A stretch of DNA of 35,131 nt from Planctomycetota bacterium (GTDB lineage: Bacteria > Planctomycetota > Phycisphaerae > UBA1845 > Fen-1342): the NCBI GenBank assembly GCA_022574815.1, contig JACZRH010000008.1:1-35131 (forward strand), in the 5' to 3' direction. A program made the position numbers and the translations under genes. Positions 13,838 to 35,131 of the stretch are shown here, in pieces. Within the stretch, counting starts at the first letter, position 1. Each line of letters starts with the position of its first letter. The notes below the pieces were generated by a model. It saw only the letters and a list, made by a program, of their open reading frames with translations, did not search any database and had not been told where the DNA came from.

Positions 13838-14223
13838 TTGCACGGTATGGGCGAATCGAAAGCCTGTCAATCGGCCGACCGGGTCGGGCGGACGGGGGAC
13901 CTGTTCGCTTTCCATCGCGTCGCCGCGAGTCGGATCGGGTCCCGGGAAAACCAAGCGGAAATTGCCCGAACATCCTCCGGGGCGGTGGCGTAATCTCTCC
14001 GTAGCGGGTATGTTACCGTGTTATTGAGGTGCCGGCCAATCGGTTGAGTCCGGAGTCTCGCCTAGGCGCGTTGCCGGATCGTCGGGTGGCGATCGCGCGC
14101 GGGCGGGTGAGGCTCTCGGCATCGTGGGTTGGGCAGCTATTGGAGGCGTTCATCATGTTGACGTTCGCGGCGCGTTAGTGATGAGCAAGTTACACCGGGT
14201 TGTGGAGCCGTACGGAGAGTTGC

Positions 14224-17052
14224 GTGGCCAAGACGCTGAGAGTTCACTCGCTGGCCAAAGAGCTAGGCGTTTCCAGCAAGGATCTCATTGCCAAGTGCGG
14301 CGCCGAGGGCATCGAGCTGAAGAATCACATGGCCGCGATCACGGCCGGTCTGGCCGAGTCGATCCATGAGTGGTTCTCGGTTGACGCCGACGTTACCTCC
14401 GTCGAAGTAGCCTCCCCCGTCGACCTCCAGAAAGTCCGCAAGAAACCCAAAGTCAAGATAAAGTCCAATGAGCAGATCGAGACGGTGGAGCAAACGCTTG
14501 CCCCTGCCGCAGAGACTGCCGCCCCTGGCGCCGCGGTCGAGTCCGAAGTCGGCGGGACCGGCGAGGCCATGCCGGCCGAAGGACCTGCGATCGCAATCGC
14601 CGAAGCGCCGGCAATCGCCGCGTCCGCGGCGGACAGCACCGAGAGCTCGGACTCCGCCGGCGCGCATCCGATAGTACTCGAGCCGGCGGCAACGCTCGGG
14701 AGTGAGACGGCGGCGCTGCCCGTCGTCGAAGAGGGCCTGGCCGCTGCCGCTTCGGAAGTTGATTCGGTCGGTGCGCAAGAGGCCGCCGAAGCCGACCAAG
14801 CTGAGCGCGTCGTCTCAAAGTCGCCGTCCGAGCCCGTTGTGCCGGCGGGACCACAATTGGTTCCGAAACCGGCCGAACTCAAGGGGCCGCGCGTCGTGCG
14901 GATCGAGTCACCGGAAACCGACACGCTGCGCTCTCCGCGCGTGCCGAGACCGCCCCGCCGGGATCGACCGGCGGCGCAGCTTTCGACAGCAATCCGGCCG
15001 CCACCGGCGGCTGACCCACCCACGGAAACAGCACGACGCGGGCGCAGCCGTGGAACGCCGGGTCGGGGGCCCGCTACCGACGCGACCCGCGCGCGTAGCC
15101 CACGCCGCCGTGGCGCGGACCTCGATCTGGTTGGCGAGCGTCTTCGCGAATGGCGTGACCAGGATCTGATCGAGCGCAAGGAGCGTCTGGCCAGCGCGAC
15201 CGGGCACGGGCTGCGCGACCGTCGGGCGGCCGAGAAACGACGCAGCGCTTCGTCGCCGGGCGGTGCGCTACCCGCCGAGCGCAGCTCGATGGTCGAGATC
15301 CAGGAACCCATTCTGCTGAAGAGCTTCTGCAGCGCCGTGGGCGTCCCGTTTACCTGGGTCATGAAGAAAATGCTCGAGCACGGCGGGGCCGCGCCGCGAA
15401 ACATTAACGAGGCCATCGACGCCGAAACCGCCGAAATGCTCGCTCTGGAACTGGGCGTCACGCTCAAGGTTCTCAAGGCCAAGACGGCGATGCAATTGCT
15501 GGAGGAAGAGTTCGCCGCCGTCGAGCGGAAAAACCTCCAACCGCGCCCGCCGGTGGTCGCGATGCTGGGGCACGTCGACCACGGCAAAACCTCCCTGCTC
15601 GACCGCATCCGGAAATCGGACGTCGCGGCCGGCGAGGCCGGCGGGATTACGCAGCACATTGGTGCCTACCGGATCGATCGCGGCGACTGGCACGTGACCT
15701 TTTTGGACACGCCCGGGCACGAAGCGTTCACCGCGATGCGCGCCCGCGGCGCCAACCTGACCGACGTGGTCGTGTTGGTCGTGGCAGCCGACGACGGTGT
15801 GATGCCGCAGACCGTGGAGGCCATCAATCACGCCAAGGCCGCCGGCGTGCAGATCGTGATCGCGCTCAACAAGATCGACCTGCCCGGCGTGGACCTAAAC
15901 AGGATCTACGCCCAACTGGCCGAGCACGATCTTGCCCCCGCCGAATGGGGCGGACAGACCGACGTCATAAAGACCAGCGCCACGACGGGCGAGGGCATCG
16001 ACGAACTGATCGAGCATCTCAGCACCTTAAGCGAGGTCATGGACCTGACCGCCGACCCAACGGTCGCGACCGTCGCGACCGTCATCGAGGCGGACATGCG
16101 TGAAGGCCGCGGCTTCGTCGCCGAGGTCCTGGTGCGCGAGGGCACGCTGGAACGGGGGCAGGTGATCGTCTGCGGCCCCGGCGCGGGCCGCGTGCGCACG
16201 CTGCGCGACGACAAGGGCCGCGACGTGGCCAAGGCTCTCCCGGGCTCGCCCGTGGCGGTTTCGGGGCTCGACGAATTGCCGCAGGCCGGCGACGATTTAT
16301 TCGCCTTGAAGAATCTGAAGCGCGCGAAGGACATCGCGACGGAGACGCGTGACGCGCGTCGCGCCGCCGCCTTGCACACGCCGCAGAAGGTCGCCAGTCT
16401 CGAGGATCTGCTGCGCGCCGGAGACGAGAGTCAGGTTCCCGAGTTGGCGGTGATCATCAAGGCCGACGGTCAGGGTTCGGTGGATGCGCTGCGTGACAAG
16501 CTCCTGGCGTTCCCATCAAACAAAGCCCGCCTGAACCTCCTGCACGCCGGCGTCGGCGCGATCTCCGAAGCCGATGTCGCTCTGGCACAAGCCTCCGGCG
16601 CGCTGATCATCGGGTTTCACGTGGTGGCCGAGGATCGCGCCCGAAAATCCGCCGAGCGGGGCGGCGTGGAGATCCGCCAATACCGAATCATTTACGAGAT
16701 CACCGACGACGTACACAAGGCCCTGGAAGGACTGCTCGAGCCCGAGCGCCATCAGGAGCCGCGCGGCTCGGTCGAGGTGCGACGCATCTTCAACGTCTCG
16801 CGGCTGGGCACCGTCGCCGGTTGCTACGTTTCCGACGGAGTCGTCCAACGCAATCATCGCGTCCGGCTGGTCCGCGACGGCCGGATTGTGCTCGAGGATG
16901 CCGCGATCGCATCGCTCAAGCGCTTCAAGGACGACGCCCGCGAGGTGCGCAGCGGGTTCGAGTGCGGGCTCAAGATTGCGGGCTTCGACGACGTCAAGCC
17001 CGGCGATGTGATCGAGGCGTTCGAGGTCGTCGAGGTAGCGCAGCGGCTTTAG
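14224..17052 (+). CDS. infB: Translation initiation factor IF-2
   Basis: GTPase of 942 residues that places initiator tRNA on the 30S subunit. An N-terminal IF2_N segment ([20 protein letters not shown]) is followed by a long Ala/Glu/Pro-rich linker, a second IF2_N-like helix bundle at about 358-410, and the G domain: GHVDHGKT 449-456, DTPGH 495-499, NKID 549-552 and a SAT-type G5. Domains II-IV continue to the end without a gap. I start at the GTG at 14224 because GGAGAG lies just upstream and the family opening begins there; an ATG 24 bases earlier has no such site. nusA, its usual neighbour, is not present upstream. It heads a cluster with DUF503 and rbfA. Confidence 0.97.
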
Positions 17053-17089: not shown

Positions 17090-17374
17090 GTGATGGTGGT
17101 TGGCGTGTTGCGAGTGCGGCTCGGGATATTCGAGGCGCGCTCTTTGAAGGACAAGCGGCGTGTGACCCAGAGCCTGAAGGCCCGCTTGGGATCGCGCCAC
17201 AATGTGTCGGTGGCGGAGATCGACGATTTGGACCACCGCCAGGCGGCCACGCTCGGTGTGGCGATGGTCGCGAACGAAGCGCGGTTCATCCAACGATCAC
17301 TCGACAAGATCGTGGACGAGATTCGCGCATCCGGCCGCTGCTCGCTGATCGATTACGAAATCGAGTGGCTCTAG
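17090..17374 (+). CDS. DUF503 (YlxP-like) protein
   Basis: A 94-residue member of DUF503. Signature pieces are VGVLRVRLGIFEARSLKDKR, a small alpha/beta core with VSVAEIDDLDHRQAATLGVA, and a final SLIDYEIEWL. YlxP in Bacillus sits in the same place, between infB and rbfA. It is thought to have a ribosome-related role, but its biochemistry is not settled. The start is GTG at 17090 or ATG three bases on; GGGAGG lies 6-9 bases upstream of either. The gene is 38 bases after infB and 24 before rbfA, which supports one operon. Confidence 0.9.
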   Translation: MMVVGVLRVRLGIFEARSLKDKRRVTQSLKARLGSRHNVSVAEIDDLDHRQAATLGVAMVANEARFIQRSLDKIVDEIRASGRCSLIDYEIEWL

Positions 17375-17398: not shown

Positions 17399-17830
17399 TT
17401 GTCAAGACGCCCCTTGCGAGTCGCCAGCCTGATCCGTTCGATCGTGGCGGACGCGATCCAGACGCGGCTGAGCGATCCGCACATCGAGCCCATGACCTCG
17501 GTGACGCGCGTCGAGGTTTCGGGGGACCTGTCGACCGCGCGCGTGTACGTGAGCGTCATGGCCGACGACCGGCGCCGGCGGCGCTGCCTGGCGGCGCTAG
17601 AGCGCGCCGCCGGCCGAGTGCGGGGCATGGTGGCGCGTCAAATATCGTTGCGCAAGGCCCCGCAGATCAGCTTCCACCTCGATGAATCGGTGCGCGGGAG
17701 CTTCGCAACCGTGCAATTGATCGAGCGCGTGATGAGCGAGCACGAGCCGGCGACCGAGACGCCCGGCGGAGGCGACGGGACGACGAACGGCGTCGTCCCG
17801 GATGGTCCGAGTGGTAAGGAGGACACTTGA
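17399..17830 (+). CDS. rbfA: Ribosome-binding factor A
   Basis: A 143-residue KH-fold maturation factor for the 30S subunit and the 5' end of 16S rRNA. Diagnostic are VASLIRSIVADAIQTRLSDP at the start, VTRVEVSGDLSTARVYVSVM, and the C-terminal KAPQISFHLDESV helix-strand region. About 25 Gly/Thr/Asp-rich residues trail the domain. The start is TTG, supported by AGGAG 10 bases upstream and by alignment of the family start. The gene follows DUF503 closely and precedes the HhH protein by only three bases. Confidence 0.93.
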   Translation: MSRRPLRVASLIRSIVADAIQTRLSDPHIEPMTSVTRVEVSGDLSTARVYVSVMADDRRRRRCLAALERAAGRVRGMVARQISLRKAPQISFHLDESVRGSFATVQLIERVMSEHEPATETPGGGDGTTNGVVPDGPSGKEDT

Positions 17831-17833
17831 GAC

Positions 17834-18868
17834 ATGAGGGGTGCCACCGAATGCGGGCGACGCTTGAAACGGCTCTTCACTGCGCTGCGCTCGAAACTGG
17901 GCAAGGTCCACCACCCTCCGATCGGCGATCCGATCACGCAGTTGGTGCTGGGCGTGTTTTCGCGCGACGCACCGGAAGCCAAGGCGCGGGAAGCCTTGCA
18001 AAAACTGCGCGCGATGGTTGTCGATTACAACGAACTGCGCGTGGTCGCACCGATCGAGCTTGCCGATGCGCTGGGCGCGTCGCCCGAGGTGCGTCGCAGG
18101 TGCGAGGACCTGTCGCGCGCTTTGAACCGAGTCTTCGCGGTTGAGCACGTTGTGTCTCTCGATCGGCTCCGGACGATGCCCCGCAAAGACGTCTTGGCTT
18201 ACCTCAAGCAGATCGACGGTCTGGAAGCGTATTCGCGGGCACGGATCCGCTTGCAGGGCCTCCAGTCGCACGCGATCCCGCTCAACGAAGCCGCTTGGGC
18301 GTACGCCCGCGAGGCGCGGATCGTCAACGCGCGCTGCGGGCTCGAGGAAGCCCAGTCCTTCCTCGAACGACAGATCGCCGAAGAGGACGCCTTCGAGTTC
18401 GTCGCGCTAATCCACAAGCAGGGCTGGGCTGAGATGGGCGCCAAGGTGCGCCGCGGCGAAACCGAGAGGATCCGGAGCATCCCGCCGGACCGCACCTCGC
18501 GAAACATGCTCCAGTTGGTCGTGCCGTCAGCCAACGATGGCCTCGCGGCAAATCAACGGCTTGAGCCCGCGCTCGAAGAGGATTCCACCGCGGACACCCG
18601 GCCCGGCCGGGCCGCCCCCGCGCCGAAGCGTAAGCCCGCGCAGCGGCGTGCGACCGCCAAAGCTCCTCGCCGCCCAACGCCCAGACAAGCGACCCCCACG
18701 GCCAAGAAGAGACCGGCTCGCGCCAAAGCCAAAACGACCGCGAAAGCAAGACCCACGGGAGCCGCGAAGGCGAAGCAGAGGGCGTCGGCGACCACCCGAA
18801 AACGGAAGGGAACCGAGGCGCGACGCCGCGAGGCCCGAAAGTCGCCGGCGAAAGCCAAGTCGGCCTGA
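17834..18868 (+). CDS. Endonuclease III-fold (HhH-GPD) protein with histone H1-like tail
   Basis: A 344-residue protein in two parts. Residues 25-220 follow the HhH-GPD plan of endonuclease III: PITQLVLGVFSRDAPEAKAR for the first helices, then a hairpin region KQIDGLEAYSRARIRLQGLQ and SHAIPLNEAAWAYAREA. The hairpin lysine of true glycosylases is missing and the VDTHV aspartate position reads PLNEA. There is no C-terminal four-Cys iron-sulfur loop. Residues 240-344 are a Lys/Ala/Pro/Arg-rich, low-complexity tail (PTAKKRPARAKAKTTAKA), very like histone H1. I infer a non-catalytic DNA- or RNA-binding protein. GGAGG precedes the ATG by about 12 bases. It sits directly behind rbfA and is probably co-transcribed. 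Confidence 0.75.
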   Translation: MRGATECGRRLKRLFTALRSKLGKVHHPPIGDPITQLVLGVFSRDAPEAKAREALQKLRAMVVDYNELRVVAPIELADALGASPEVRRRCEDLSRALNRVFAVEHVVSLDRLRTMPRKDVLAYLKQIDGLEAYSRARIRLQGLQSHAIPLNEAAWAYAREARIVNARCGLEEAQSFLERQIAEEDAFEFVALIHKQGWAEMGAKVRRGETERIRSIPPDRTSRNMLQLVVPSANDGLAANQRLEPALEEDSTADTRPGRAAPAPKRKPAQRRATAKAPRRPTPRQATPTAKKRPARAKAKTTAKARPTGAAKAKQRASATTRKRKGTEARRREARKSPAKAKSA

Positions 18869-19006: not shown

Positions 19007-22000
19007 ATGCCACTCCGCCCCCCCCGCCGCACGCCGTCGAGTACCTCCCGAACCAAGCCGTGCGCCGGCCCAGCCTGGCCCTGCGGTGGCTCGTTTCTTC
19101 TGGCCGCGGTGGCCGCGAGCCTCTGCGCCGGCTACGGGTGGGGCCAGTCACCATCCGGCGCCGACAGGTTTTCCGCCGAGCAGGATGAAACCGCTAGAGC
19201 CCGAACCCCCTTGTCGCGAATCGAGTCGGTCCCCGCGCCGGTCTCGCGGCCCACGCTGGCACTTGGGGACGCTCCGGCCGTCCGCACTCTCTACGAAACG
19301 GCGCTCGAATCCATGCAGGACGTCGCGTACGAGAAGGCCACCGAGACGCTCGACGCCGCCTTGCACGAAGCCAGAGGCGACGTCTACGAAGTGCTCTATC
19401 TGATGGCGCTGGCCAAGTATCGGCTGGAGCGCTTCGGTGAGGCGCGCATGACGGCGGAATTCGCCGCTTCGCTACGGCACGGCGAGGCCGACGTTCATTT
19501 TCTGCTCGGCCGACTGTACGAACGCCAGGGCCGGCGTACCCGGGCGATTCGGCAGTTTCGCACCGCGACGCTAGCAGCCGAGCGCGAGCTGAACAACCCG
19601 CGCGTCACGGCCGCTTGGTATCGGCTCGGAGCGGCACTGGCCGAAGAGGCGTATTTCCAGGCCGCGGCCGAAGCATACGAGCGTTTCGACCGAGCCATTT
19701 GGGAAACGCACGCCGAGCACCGAAACGACGACGAAGTCGCGATCGTGCTGCACGACCATCCGCACGGGGCCATTTCGCTGCGCATCGGATTGCTCGAGCG
19801 CCTGGGGCAACGCGAGGCGCTGCTCGCGGCCACGGCGTCCGCGACGGAAAACCAACCGGACAGCGCCTTTTTGGCACGCCTTCACGCGCGCAAGCTGCTG
19901 GAGAATGACCGGCCCGACCGGGCCCTGGAATTCTGCCGAGCCCGATTGGACGATGGGCCGCTCTTCGACGCACTCATGCGCCCGGCCCTCGCGGCGGCGC
20001 GGGCGTCGGGCCGGCTCGACGAATGGATACGCGAGATCGAAGCCGCGGTCGGCGAGGGCCGTTGGAAGCAGACCGCCGGTCGCATGGCGCGGCGACTGGA
20101 CGAGGCCGGCTCGCACGAACACGCGAGCAAGCTCTGGCATGCGTTGTTGCGCGCCGCGCCGCAAGACGCGAACGCCGCCTGGGGCCTGGCCGCATCGCTG
20201 AAATCGTCCGGAAAGCTCGCGGAGGCGCTCGAGGCCCTGATCGACTTTGTGCGCGCCGATCCGGACAACGCCGACGTGCCGCCCGAGCGCCTGGCGGCGT
20301 GGATGACGACGTTCGAGGCAACCGACGAGTTCCTCGAGATCGTACACGCTGCCGGCGAGCGCGGCGACCGCGACTTCTCCACGGATTTCGTGCTCGGGGC
20401 GGTGGCGGCGGCGGCGCGTCAGACCCAGCTGGCTGAGCAGTTGTTCGCGTCGGCTGTCAATTCGCGGCCCGGTTTCGCGCTGGCCCACGTCACGTGGGGC
20501 CGCCTGCTTCTCACGCAATACCGCTGGGAGCAGGCCAAGCAGCAGGCTTCCCAAGCACTCGAGCACGCGCCGCGGCTGGCAGCCGCGCACTACGTGATGG
20601 CAGAAGCGCACTCCGGCCTCGACGAAAACGGGGACGCCGAGAAAGCGTACAAAAAAGCGCTACGCTTTCGGCCCCAAGACGCGGCCTACGCGCTGGCTCT
20701 GGCGCGGCACTACCGGCGGATGGGCCGCGCGGCGGCCCTCGGCGCGCAGCGTTATTTTCAGCAGGCTCTGTCCATCGACCCGTCCAACGGCGAGGCCGCC
20801 GAGAGCCTGATCGAGAGCTATCTGGCGGCCGGCAAATTCGACGTGGCCCGCGCGCAGCTCGAACAGGCCGAGGCTTCGGACCTGCCAGACGACGTGTTGC
20901 GCCGCGTACGAACCGCGATCCGCTATTCCCGCGGACCCTCCGCGGACCAGCTCCTGGAAGAGCTCACGCGCCAGCATGAGCGTTTCCCGAAGGACTGGAT
21001 GACCGCTCTCAAGCTGGCCGCGGCCGAGTGGAAAGTGCGACAACGACCGGACGACGCGCATCGCGTGCTCCAGCGCGTCCTGGCGCTCGTGCCGGACAGC
21101 GATCAAGCGCTCGAGATGTTCGCCGGCGTGCAAATCGACCGGCTCGAATACCCCCAGGCGATCGAGGCGATCGAAAAACTCGCCGCCCGCTATCCGAACC
21201 GCCGCGCCGTGCTGATCGCGCTGACAAAGACGTACCAGTACGACTTTCAGATCGACAAATCCCTGGCCGTGCTGCACCGGCTGCTCGCGTTGGCGACCGA
21301 AGACGACGAGCGAGCCGCCTTGCGCGAGGAGTTGTTGAGCGTCCAAATGACCTTTCAGGACTATGACGGCGCGTTGGCACTCGTCGACACGTGGCTGAAG
21401 GACTCGCCGAACGACGACGTCTTCGGGCGCTATCGGCTCGGGGTGCTCCGCGCCGCGGAGCGCTGGCCGGACGCCGTCAAGCTCGCGACCAAGCGTCTGG
21501 AAGCGACTCCGGCGGACAGGAGCCGCCGGCTCGAATTCGTCGAGACGTGTTCCCGCGCGGGACGCTACAAGGAAGCCGAACGTCGCGTACGCGCGTGGCT
21601 GCGCGGCGATTCCGGCGACGGCCCCTGGGCCGGAAAGCTGGTCGAAATCCTGCTGAAAGACAAACGCCCGGAGGAGGCCCTCGACATCGTCAACGACCTC
21701 ACGCCGCCCAACCCGACGGCGGCGCTCGAGGTGGGGCGGATGCGGGCCCGCTGCTACGCCGCTGCCGACCGCGTGGACGCCGCCGTCGAGGAGTTGGACG
21801 ATCTGATGGCGGAGGTCAACGGAATGCCCCGCGAGTTTCGCCCGCAGGTGCGTTACTTGTTCCGGGCCGAGATCGCACGCATTCTGATGGAGGCGCAGCG
21901 CTACGAGGAAGCGTTGCGACGCTGCGAGAAATGGCTCGAGCAAACCCCCAAGAACGGCGCGCTGGCCCGCGTCAGGGCACTCGAGCTCAAACGCGCCGTC

Positions 22001-22504
22001 GTCCAGGCCATGGGCAACGACGAGGAGGACGCGAAGGTCGCCGAGGCGTTGTTGGCAATCGTGCCCAACGACGCCGGCCTGAACAACGACCTGGGCTACA
22101 ACTGGGTCGATGCGGGCCTGCACCTCGAGCGGGCGACGCGGATGATCCGCAAAGCGGTCGTCCGCGACCCGCTGAACGCAGCTTTTCTCGACAGCCTGGG
22201 GTGGGCGTACTACAAGGCCGGCGATTTCGCCGCCGCCCGCAAGTACCTCGGCCGCACCGTCCGCCTCGCCGCCGGGCAGGACCCCGTCATCTACGACCAT
22301 CTCGGCGACGCCGATTACCGGCTCGGCGACGAGGGCAGCGCCCGCCAGCACTGGGAAAAAACGCTCGCGCTGCTCGAGGATTCCACGAAGGAGAGCCCCG
22401 ATCCGCGCGACGCCGAACTGACCTCGGCAGCGCGCGAGAAGCTCGCGGCGCTGCGGAAGTCCAAACCACCGAAAGTGGCCCCCACCGCCAAGGAGCAGGA
22501 GTGA
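19007..22504 (+). CDS. Very long exported TPR-repeat protein
   Basis: A 1165-residue protein. A hydrophobic stretch (GSFLLAAVAASLCAGYGWGQ) near residues 28-48, after a basic Arg/Pro stretch, suggests export or membrane anchoring. The rest is almost entirely helical TPR-type repeats, for example AWGLAASLKSSGKLAEALEA, HYVMAEAHSGLDENGDAEKA and YFQQALSIDPSNGEAAESLI. The C-terminal 130 residues (NDLGYNWVDAG, FLDSLGWAYYKAGDFAAARK, VIYDHLGDADYRLGDE) are a conserved module also seen in proteobacterial exopolysaccharide or outer-membrane TPR proteins. It probably acts as a scaffold. GCAGGAG lies 9 bases before the ATG. The stop overlaps the next gene as GTGA, so the two are coupled; the overlap does not prove a shared function. 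Confidence 0.85.
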   Translation: MPLRPPRRTPSSTSRTKPCAGPAWPCGGSFLLAAVAASLCAGYGWGQSPSGADRFSAEQDETARARTPLSRIESVPAPVSRPTLALGDAPAVRTLYETALESMQDVAYEKATETLDAALHEARGDVYEVLYLMALAKYRLERFGEARMTAEFAASLRHGEADVHFLLGRLYERQGRRTRAIRQFRTATLAAERELNNPRVTAAWYRLGAALAEEAYFQAAAEAYERFDRAIWETHAEHRNDDEVAIVLHDHPHGAISLRIGLLERLGQREALLAATASATENQPDSAFLARLHARKLLENDRPDRALEFCRARLDDGPLFDALMRPALAAARASGRLDEWIREIEAAVGEGRWKQTAGRMARRLDEAGSHEHASKLWHALLRAAPQDANAAWGLAASLKSSGKLAEALEALIDFVRADPDNADVPPERLAAWMTTFEATDEFLEIVHAAGERGDRDFSTDFVLGAVAAAARQTQLAEQLFASAVNSRPGFALAHVTWGRLLLTQYRWEQAKQQASQALEHAPRLAAAHYVMAEAHSGLDENGDAEKAYKKALRFRPQDAAYALALARHYRRMGRAAALGAQRYFQQALSIDPSNGEAAESLIESYLAAGKFDVARAQLEQAEASDLPDDVLRRVRTAIRYSRGPSADQLLEELTRQHERFPKDWMTALKLAAAEWKVRQRPDDAHRVLQRVLALVPDSDQALEMFAGVQIDRLEYPQAIEAIEKLAARYPNRRAVLIALTKTYQYDFQIDKSLAVLHRLLALATEDDERAALREELLSVQMTFQDYDGALALVDTWLKDSPNDDVFGRYRLGVLRAAERWPDAVKLATKRLEATPADRSRRLEFVETCSRAGRYKEAERRVRAWLRGDSGDGPWAGKLVEILLKDKRPEEALDIVNDLTPPNPTAALEVGRMRARCYAAADRVDAAVEELDDLMAEVNGMPREFRPQVRYLFRAEIARILMEAQRYEEALRRCEKWLEQTPKNGALARVRALELKRAVVQAMGNDEEDAKVAEALLAIVPNDAGLNNDLGYNWVDAGLHLERATRMIRKAVVRDPLNAAFLDSLGWAYYKAGDFAAARKYLGRTVRLAAGQDPVIYDHLGDADYRLGDEGSARQHWEKTLALLEDSTKESPDPRDAELTSAAREKLAALRKSKPPKVAPTAKEQE

Positions 22505-23502
22505 GCTCGGACAAAAGCGCGCTGCAAGTCGCGCGCGACGTGATTTCGGAAGAAGCCGAAGCCCTGCGGCAGCTCGCGTCGTCGTTCGGCAACGGCTTCG
22601 ACGGCATCCTCGAGACGATTCGCGCCAGCCGCCAGATCGTCGTCAGCGGTCTCGGCAAAAGCGGACACATCGCGCAGAAAATCGCCGCTTCGCTGACGAG
22701 CACCGGCACGCCCGCCATGTACATGCACCCGGTCGAAGCGTTGCACGGCGACCTGGGAATCGTGACCGAGTCGCACTGCCTGGTCGCGCTTTCGCGCAGC
22801 GGCAACACCGAAGAGGTCCTGCGGTTCGTGACGCACTTTCGCCGGCTGGGCGGCCCGGTGATCGGCATCACGCAGGGGCGCGAATCGCGCCTGGCCGAGC
22901 TGGCCCGGCACACGATCCTGCTGCCGGAAGTCCCCGAGGCTGGTCCGCTGAACTTGGCGCCCACGACGAGCTGCATACTCATGCTTGCGGCCGGCGACGC
23001 GCTGGCGATGGCCTTGTTGCACGCCAGCGGCTTTCAACGCGATGACTTCGCTCAGTACCACCCCGAGGGCACGCTCGGGCGGCGGCTCCTGCTGCGGGCC
23101 AACGACCTGATGCACACCGGCGACGACCTCCCGCTCGTTTACGCCGACGATCCGTTCGACCGCCTCATACTCGAAATGACGCAAAAGCGCCTCGGATTGG
23201 CACTGATCGTCGAGCGCGACGGGCAGCTCATGGGCACCTTCACGGATGGCGACCTGCGCCGCGCGCAAGAGCGCGTGCCGGACCCGCACAAGCTCGATGC
23301 CCGCACGCTCTTCGGTAAGACCCGCCGCCCCTCATCGGCCCCCGACGTGCCGGTGTCCCGCGTCCCCGGCAATCACCCCGCCGTCGAGTGCCTGCGGATC
23401 ATGCGCGAGGCCGAGATCACGAGCCTCGTCATCGTCGATGAACACCAGCATCCGACCGGCGTTTTGCGGCTGCTGGACCTGCTGCGAGCCGGTCTTGCGT
23501 AA
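22501..23502 (+). CDS. kpsF: Arabinose-5-phosphate isomerase, KpsF/GutQ family
   Basis: A 333-residue enzyme that interconverts ribulose-5-phosphate and arabinose-5-phosphate, the first step to KDO for lipopolysaccharide. A SIS domain (residues 25-190) carries VVSGLGKSGHIAQKIAASL, MHPVEALHGDLGIV, SRSGNTEEV, and the diagnostic YHPEGTLGRRLLLRANDLMH. Two CBS domains follow, about 205-330 (LALIVERDGQLMGTFTDGDL and SLVIVDEHQHPTGVLRLLDL). The start is GTG at 22501, overlapping the TPR gene's stop. Presence of the gene fits an organism with a Gram-negative-type outer membrane. Other KDO genes are not seen in the window. Confidence 0.94.
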   Translation: MSSDKSALQVARDVISEEAEALRQLASSFGNGFDGILETIRASRQIVVSGLGKSGHIAQKIAASLTSTGTPAMYMHPVEALHGDLGIVTESHCLVALSRSGNTEEVLRFVTHFRRLGGPVIGITQGRESRLAELARHTILLPEVPEAGPLNLAPTTSCILMLAAGDALAMALLHASGFQRDDFAQYHPEGTLGRRLLLRANDLMHTGDDLPLVYADDPFDRLILEMTQKRLGLALIVERDGQLMGTFTDGDLRRAQERVPDPHKLDARTLFGKTRRPSSAPDVPVSRVPGNHPAVECLRIMREAEITSLVIVDEHQHPTGVLRLLDLLRAGLA

Positions 23503-34056: not shown

Positions 34057-35131
34057 ATGACCTGGCCAACACTCAATCGGAGGCTCGCAGGTATTCTCGC
34101 ATCGGCGTGTCTGGTGTCCGGTGCACTTGCCCAGACCACGTACTACGTGAACGGCTCGTGTGGTAGCGACGCCTGGACGGGAACAAACTCCGTCTGCGTT
34201 GCACCGGATGGTCCCAAGCGCACGATCCAGGCCGGGATCGACACCAGCGCCACCGGCGACACGGTGATCGTGGCCGACGGCACGTACACCGGGGCCGGGA
34301 ACCGGGATCTGGACTTCGCCGGCCGGGACATTCATCTGCGGTCCGAGAGTCTTGACCCGAGCCTGTGCATCATCGACTGTCAGGGCAGCGCGGTCGACCC
34401 GCACCGAGGCTTCCACTTCCACAGCGGCGAGACCAATGACGCCGTGCTGGAGGGCTTCACCATCACCAATGGCTTTGTCACCAGTGCCAGCCCCGGCGGC
34501 GACATCGGCGGCGGGATGCTGAATGAAAACAGCAGCCCGACGGTGAGCAACTGCACCTTCGACTCGAACATTGCCCAGCTACGCGGTGGCGGGATGTACA
34601 ATGACGTAAGCAGCCCGAGGGTCACCAATTGCACTTTCAGTGCGAACACGGCCAGCGGCGGCTCCGGCGGCGGGATGCTCAATCGCAACGGCAGCAGCCC
34701 GACGGTGACCGACTGCACGTTCAGCGGCAACACGGCGGCGGGGCCTCTCGGCGCGGGCGCTGGCGGCGGGATGCTCAACGCGTTGGGCAGCAACCCGTCC
34801 GTGACCGGCTGCACGTTCATCGGCAACATGTCGCCGGCGGATGCCGGCGGCGGCATGGCCAACGTCTCCGGCTCCAGCCCAATCGTCAGGAACTGCATGT
34901 TCAACAACAACACGGCCCCCTTCGGCGGCGGCATGTTCAACATTCGCACCGGCAGCAATCCGACCATCACGGCTTGCACCTTCCGCGCCAACACCGCCGG
35001 TATCAATGGCGGCGGGATGTCCAATGGCGACAGCAGCAGCCCGACGGTGACCGACTGCACCTTCGACTCGAACATCGCACGGCAAAACGGCGGCGGGATG
35101 TACAGCAGCAGCAGCAGCCCCACGGTCAGCG
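34057..35131 (+). CDS. Right-handed beta-helix surface protein, 3' end outside window
   Basis: The frame is open from the ATG at 34057 to the right edge, so the gene is partial at its 3' end (at least 358 residues). GGAGGA lies 8-11 bases before the start. A signal peptide (LAGILASACLVSGALAQ) is followed by YYVNGSCGSDAWTG and a TIQAGIDTSATGDTVIVADG segment, the usual opening of polymorphic-membrane-protein or parallel beta-helix proteins. From about residue 145 a 27-35-residue unit recurs: GGGMLN..SSPTVS.CTF..N.A. At least seven copies are seen, and one unit is cut by the window edge. It is probably a secreted or surface-anchored adhesin-like protein or carbohydrate-active lyase relative. The preceding 280-base gap holds a TACAAT -10-like hexamer at 34006 but no well-spaced -35. 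Confidence 0.88.
   Translation, partial: MTWPTLNRRLAGILASACLVSGALAQTTYYVNGSCGSDAWTGTNSVCVAPDGPKRTIQAGIDTSATGDTVIVADGTYTGAGNRDLDFAGRDIHLRSESLDPSLCIIDCQGSAVDPHRGFHFHSGETNDAVLEGFTITNGFVTSASPGGDIGGGMLNENSSPTVSNCTFDSNIAQLRGGGMYNDVSSPRVTNCTFSANTASGGSGGGMLNRNGSSPTVTDCTFSGNTAAGPLGAGAGGGMLNALGSNPSVTGCTFIGNMSPADAGGGMANVSGSSPIVRNCMFNNNTAPFGGGMFNIRTGSNPTITACTFRANTAGINGGGMSNGDSSSPTVTDCTFDSNIARQNGGGMYSSSSSPTVS
34490..35131 (+). repeat. Coding tandem repeats of the beta-helix gene
   Basis: Within the beta-helix gene, units of about 80-105 bases recur. Each includes GGCGGCGGGATG, a stretch encoding SSP, and GACTGCAC(C/G)TTC. Spacing varies, and the unit encodes one helix turn or two. Short simple-repeat pieces (AGCAGCAGCAGC) are also present near 35103-35115. 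Confidence 0.75.

Follow-up and report, generated by a model that had tools for sequence, protein, structure and literature searches.

A family of proteins descended from the DNA-repair enzyme endonuclease III is encoded in nearly every genome of one class of Planctomycetota, and in the window analyzed here (the entire stretch of 35,131 nucleotides, in which all positions are counted) its member lies directly behind rbfA. On balance, and with modest confidence, we favor the view that this family consists of pseudo-glycosylases, non-enzymatic descendants of endonuclease III, that may serve as RNA-binding factors in Planctomycetota, taking part in the building of the small ribosomal subunit or in its function. 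What chiefly points to the ribosome is that the family is linked both to rbfA and to rpsP, two distinct genes of small-subunit assembly. The family is real, phylum-wide and previously undescribed; it has no Pfam entry, is near-universal in the class and covers much of Planctomycetota. A literature search found no paper joining an HhH-GPD protein with rbfA.

The gene behind rbfA

The ORF at positions 17834-18868 of the plus strand encodes a protein of 344 amino acids (P0001). Three bases separate the rbfA stop codon (TGA, 17828-17830) from the ATG at 17834, and both the coordinates and this spacing are as the first-pass annotation had given them. An artefactual ORF or a wrong reading frame is ruled out, since dozens of genomes share the core and the composition of the tail. 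A promoter scan returned nothing useful. The features of the locus and of the protein are collected in Table 1.

Table 1. Features of the rbfA locus and of the HhH-GPD-like protein, in window coordinates
Feature	Position	Strand	Evidence or remark
infB (translation initiation factor IF-2)	14200..17052	+	TIGR00487 E 3e-205
DUF503 (ylxP)	17090..17374	+	PF04456 E 1e-26
rbfA (30S maturation factor)	17399..17830	+	PF02033 E 1e-27; TIGR00082 5e-25
AAGGAGG, likely ribosome-binding site	17816-17822	+	read directly; inside rbfA end, 11 bases 5' of ATG 17834
Degenerate HhH-GPD (endonuclease III-like) core, residues 1-205	17834..18448	+	profile search of PDB; hhalign to Nth
VDYNELRV, residues 63-70, family signature	18020..18043	+	Asn66, Arg69 invariant
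Tyr133 at catalytic lysine position (Nth K120)	18230..18232	+	HMM alignment to 4unf/8a5f
Asn151 at catalytic aspartate position (Nth D138)	18284..18286	+	HMM alignment to 4unf/8a5f
Linker, residues 206-250	18449..18583	+	conserved only within same family
H1-like basic tail, residues 251-344, net +30	18584..18865	+	composition
TPR-repeat protein gene, 3' of HhH gene	19007..22504	+	TPR families

Further along the window, a KpsF/GutQ-like sugar isomerase was recognized by eye at about 22507-23502, downstream of the TPR-repeat gene. The plus strand at about 34070-35131 holds the start of a secreted-looking protein with GGGMxNxxSSPTVTxCTF repeats, likely a beta-helix, which is cut off by the window edge; a minus-strand ORF of 247 amino acids in the same interval is a shadow of this repeat protein.

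Endonuclease III ancestry and distribution

P0001 has no match in Pfam, and so falls below the HhH-GPD cut-off; among the NCBIfam models, one for a monofunctional glycosylase of Deinococcus matches best, at E 4e-4, far under its cut-off. Searched alone against the PDB, the protein matches Deinococcus EndoIII at E 6e-5. A profile of 30 family members (A2), none of which has a PF00730 match, was used in an hmmsearch of the PDB and gave EndoIII-1 (8a5f/4unf) at E 6.6e-16 over query positions 8-168, EndoIII-3 at 2.7e-10 and ROS1 at 3e-9, and hhalign of the A2 profile with canonical Nth gave a probability of 98.4% and E 1e-14. Judged by these matches to EndoIII-1 and Nth, the HhH-GPD ancestry of the window protein is well beyond chance, and the HhH-GPD plan proposed from the letters in the first pass is upheld. 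AlphaFold2, run on three sequences, gave a mean pLDDT of 41 and no reliable structure, and the fold is assigned by profile homology alone.

Separate canonical PF00730 glycosylases are present in 60 of 60 class genomes. Replacement of the cell's sole Nth is thereby ruled out, and the window family is an additional, diverged paralog of Nth, because the canonical proteins are found alongside it. The window's own genome (84% complete) has just one PF00730 match (L073), whose frame can be read as a transporter permease too, perhaps through an assembly join, and this match carries no weight in the argument.

Two relatives, from Planctomycetota and Phycisphaerae, share 54 and 51% identity with the window protein, and whole-genome searches detected the family in 99 of 101 order genomes and 188 of 198 class genomes (153 of 154 of the high-quality ones). 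Outside the class, the profile matched canonical Nth (L132, L146), a MIG-like methyltransferase fusion (L134) and many proteins carrying VDWNEVRV. The last group is without the GVGxKT hairpin, often has all four Fe-S cysteines, and is intermediate between A2 and Nth in profile comparison (A2-A4 99.9%, A4-A3 99.7%). A FastTree phylogeny of 59 cores placed canonical Nth outside the pseudo-glycosylases, with weak support for the deep inner branches, so that any order of the losses read from it is tentative. One genome missed by the first profile has a weak N-x-x-R relative that shares its locus (L233) with yebC. For family f69, a wider profile returned just canonical Nth and other HhH-GPD enzymes and no clear pseudo-glycosylase; f69 is either a real exception or the bearer of a strongly diverged copy.

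The methyltransferase fusion is a protein of 617 amino acids (L134:2276-4126, minus strand). Its HhH-GPD domain (GIGKYA, VDFHM), which has the Fe-S cysteines but Tyr in place of the lysine, is joined to an apparent DNA cytosine methyltransferase, and the whole looks like a mismatch glycosylase combined with the enzyme whose damage it would repair.

The basic tail

The tail of the window protein is 94 residues long (A25 R18 K15 T12 P11), in agreement with the roughly 100 Lys/Ala/Pro-rich residues first noticed there. Basic C-termini occur in 65 of 68 order members. Basic tails were counted in 64 of 68 order members, 14 of 20 class members and 52 of 76 relatives from the wider phylum (26 of these 52 with the Fe-S cysteines), and tail length across the family varies widely, with mere stubs at one extreme and about 150 residues or more at the other. 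Some other members of the phylum have an acidic tail or none. In L109-L113, five of the 20 class members with the gene behind rbfA, the chain extends past the core by just 4-14 residues, mostly lysines. Homologs lacking the tail at the same position, which the first-pass annotation had taken to count against its reading, do therefore exist in part, as stubs in these five, with tails in most of the others. Given these stubs, the tail is accessory to the core and not the whole function. Very long basic tails, of 187-329 residues, were seen in the relatives at L144, L148, L202 and other rpsP-linked loci.

Basic C-terminal 40-mers are restricted to certain proteins of the same loci. They were found in 0 of 104 RbfA and 0 of 97 IF2 proteins, counts that rule out the tail as a genome-wide protein trait, and are absent from DUF503, HisG, Maf, RF1 and the TPR protein; YebC has one in 1 of 37 cases, S16 in 13 of 32 and Ffh in 25 of 28. 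S16 and Ffh are RNA binders, and the occurrence of basic C-termini on these two, and not on IF2, RbfA, HisG or Maf, supports the ribosomal reading.

The tail also lies at the center of a different proposal, that of a DNA architectural (nucleoid) protein in which the dead HhH-GPD domain would bind DNA that is bent or damaged, with the H1-like tail condensing it. DNA binding is general in the HhH-GPD superfamily, condensed nucleoids are documented in planctomycetes, and the K-rich H1-like tails of AlgP (PMC9239181) and Streptomyces TopA (PMC7398561) act on DNA. Because H1-like tails elsewhere act on DNA, the tail by itself cannot discriminate between DNA and RNA as ligand. These considerations, namely the DNA binding of the superfamily and of other bacterial H1-like tails (AlgP, actinobacterial TopA), weigh against a ribosomal role, as does the circumstantial nature of the neighborhood. 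However, neither the hairpin glycine nor the wedge glutamine nor the Fe-S loop, with which EndoIII contacts DNA, is conserved in the family, the tail is reduced to a stub in five class members and acidic or missing in others of the phylum, and the neighboring genes are ribosomal or translational rather than chromosomal. A nucleoid function is, on these grounds, doubtful.

Gene neighborhood

The arrangement infB-(DUF503)-rbfA-HhH-TPR was found in every locus of the order long enough to show it, and each of 20 further class members has the HhH gene directly 3' of rbfA. The infB-ylxP-rbfA-HhH order, the conservation of which had been suggested as a check, is thus kept across the order in the form infB-(DUF503)-rbfA-HhH, with the rbfA adjacency extending through the class members. 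The TPR gene comes next in most order loci, whereas most class members do not have it at this place.

Of the loci first inspected outside the class, five have the relative directly behind rpsP, which encodes ribosomal protein S16. Among 77 non-canonical phylum relatives, drawn from a score-ranked match list so that the proportions are no census, the gene immediately upstream is rpsP in 26 and rbfA in 12, and a further 20 immediately precede yebC. The remaining 19 adjoin none of these three genes: five are beside hisG only, three before maf only, and 11 beside none of the five. All three canonical Nth controls are away from rpsP, rbfA, yebC, hisG and maf. S16 is needed for 30S assembly, and binds the 30S subunit early.

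The placements before yebC, together with the maf and prfA genes that often lie downstream of the rpsP-linked relatives, could also indicate a factor of the translation phase rather than of assembly, one whose partners on mature ribosomes would be YebC, RF1 or IF2. We consider this quite unlikely, since the constant neighbor in the class is rbfA, the gene of an assembly factor, and the rpsP product is itself an early-binding protein.

Active site and conserved surface

The first-pass annotation was correct in finding that the window protein is without the catalytic lysine, the catalytic aspartate and the Fe-S cysteines: Tyr133 and Asn151 occupy the first two positions, and the cysteine cluster is absent. 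In addition, Glu131 replaces the second hairpin glycine. Among 70 relatives from the order, the lysine position is never K (Y42, H9, F8, A4 and others, C included), the aspartate position reads D54, N10, S2, T2, G1 and Y1, and the second hairpin glycine position is mostly E or D. The four Fe-S cysteines occur in 0 of 68 order, 0 of 20 class and 37 of 76 wider phylum relatives. In contrast to these variable positions, no variation is seen among the 70 at Asn66, Arg69 or Pro149, nor at Asn66 or Arg69 in 28 phylum-wide relatives. Because active-site positions vary and N66 and R69 do not, the conserved surface of the family is evidently not the active site. The description "catalytically stripped" fits the window protein but not the family uniformly, since 54 of 70 order relatives retain the Asp, a conservation that may leave some room for activity in other members.

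An active or lesion-sensing monofunctional glycosylase, with an aromatic residue at the lysine position plus Asp as its unusual active site, would account for this Asp, for the Tyr in 42 of 70 and for the sub-threshold NCBIfam match, and would have a counterpart in the Tyr-Asp pair of the MIG thymine-mismatch glycosylase, but is very improbable given the Asn of the window protein, the N, S, T, G or Y in 16 of 70 relatives, the H, F, A and C residues at the lysine position, the 0 of 30 members with a PF00730 match, and the separately encoded canonical glycosylases.

A proposed role in small-subunit assembly

The preferred reading, that of a ribosome-linked pseudo-glycosylase, draws on the rbfA adjacency in the order and class, on the independent rpsP, rbfA and yebC placements elsewhere in the phylum, on the separate PF00730 repair enzymes, on the variable active site set against invariant N66 and R69, and on the absence of RimM. 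The first-pass annotation had suggested a DNA- or rRNA-binding architectural protein co-expressed with ribosome maturation factors; the rbfA, rpsP and yebC context favors the ribosomal half of this suggestion, and the nucleoid half is less well supported. We infer that the ligand is RNA rather than DNA and that the site of action is the 30S subunit. The helical core, via a surface with the invariant N-x-x-R, would recognize a site on pre-16S rRNA or a 30S protein, and the flexible basic tail, where present, would make non-specific RNA contacts, anchoring the protein or aiding rRNA folding. Co-translation with RbfA would lead both proteins to act on one particle.

The RimM searches used two models, each positive in all ten bacterial controls. 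PF01782, at E 0.001, was found in 0 of 148 Planctomycetota genomes at least 90% complete, and TIGR02273 gave nothing above cut-off in these genomes, with sub-threshold fragments only at a maximum E of 1. By these searches, Planctomycetota seem to be without RimM, the usual ribosome-assembly factor. The gene after rpsP in E. coli is rimM. Loss of rimM in that organism is compensated by extra rbfA (PMC9032327). We raise, tentatively, the possibility that RimM was lost in Planctomycetota and a dead endonuclease III was recruited as its functional replacement, a 30S-head assembly chaperone encoded in the rimM slot behind rpsP in some lineages and behind rbfA in others. With RimM undetected and extra rbfA compensating for rimM loss in E. 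coli, the hypothesis is coherent, though not a finding. Family f69 has neither RimM nor a clear pseudo-glycosylase, and so the link between RimM absence and pseudo-glycosylases is imperfect.

If the ribosomal reading is true, a bacterial phylum has turned a DNA-repair enzyme into a non-enzymatic protein that is linked to the ribosome and present in nearly all of its members. The question is also raised of how a phylum with no detectable RimM matures the small-subunit head.

Comparison with known systems

Profile comparison gives the window protein the fold of the endonuclease III/HhH-GPD glycosylases, such as E. coli Nth and Deinococcus EndoIII-1 (DR2438). Unlike these enzymes, it is without the catalytic Lys and Asp, the hairpin GxG, the Fe-S cysteines and a Pfam match, and it has a basic tail and a ribosomal gene neighborhood. 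DrEndoIII3 resembles it as an EndoIII fold with no detectable activity (PMC9268735), but only DrEndoIII3 retains the Lys, the Asp, the Fe-S cluster and binding to damaged DNA.

The likeness to RimM is one of genetic context. The E. coli rpsP-rimM order resembles the order of rpsP and the HhH-GPD relative in part of Planctomycetota, and RimM is genetically linked in E. coli to rbfA, the gene that the window family adjoins. However, RimM consists of two beta-barrels, an unrelated fold, whereas the window protein is of the HhH-GPD type and has no RimM sequence match. AlgP, PhaF, Streptomyces TopA and HupS, like the window protein, end in a long, flexible tail rich in K, A and P that follows an unrelated folded domain; the window family differs from them in its folded domain, its variable tail length and its ribosomal neighbors.
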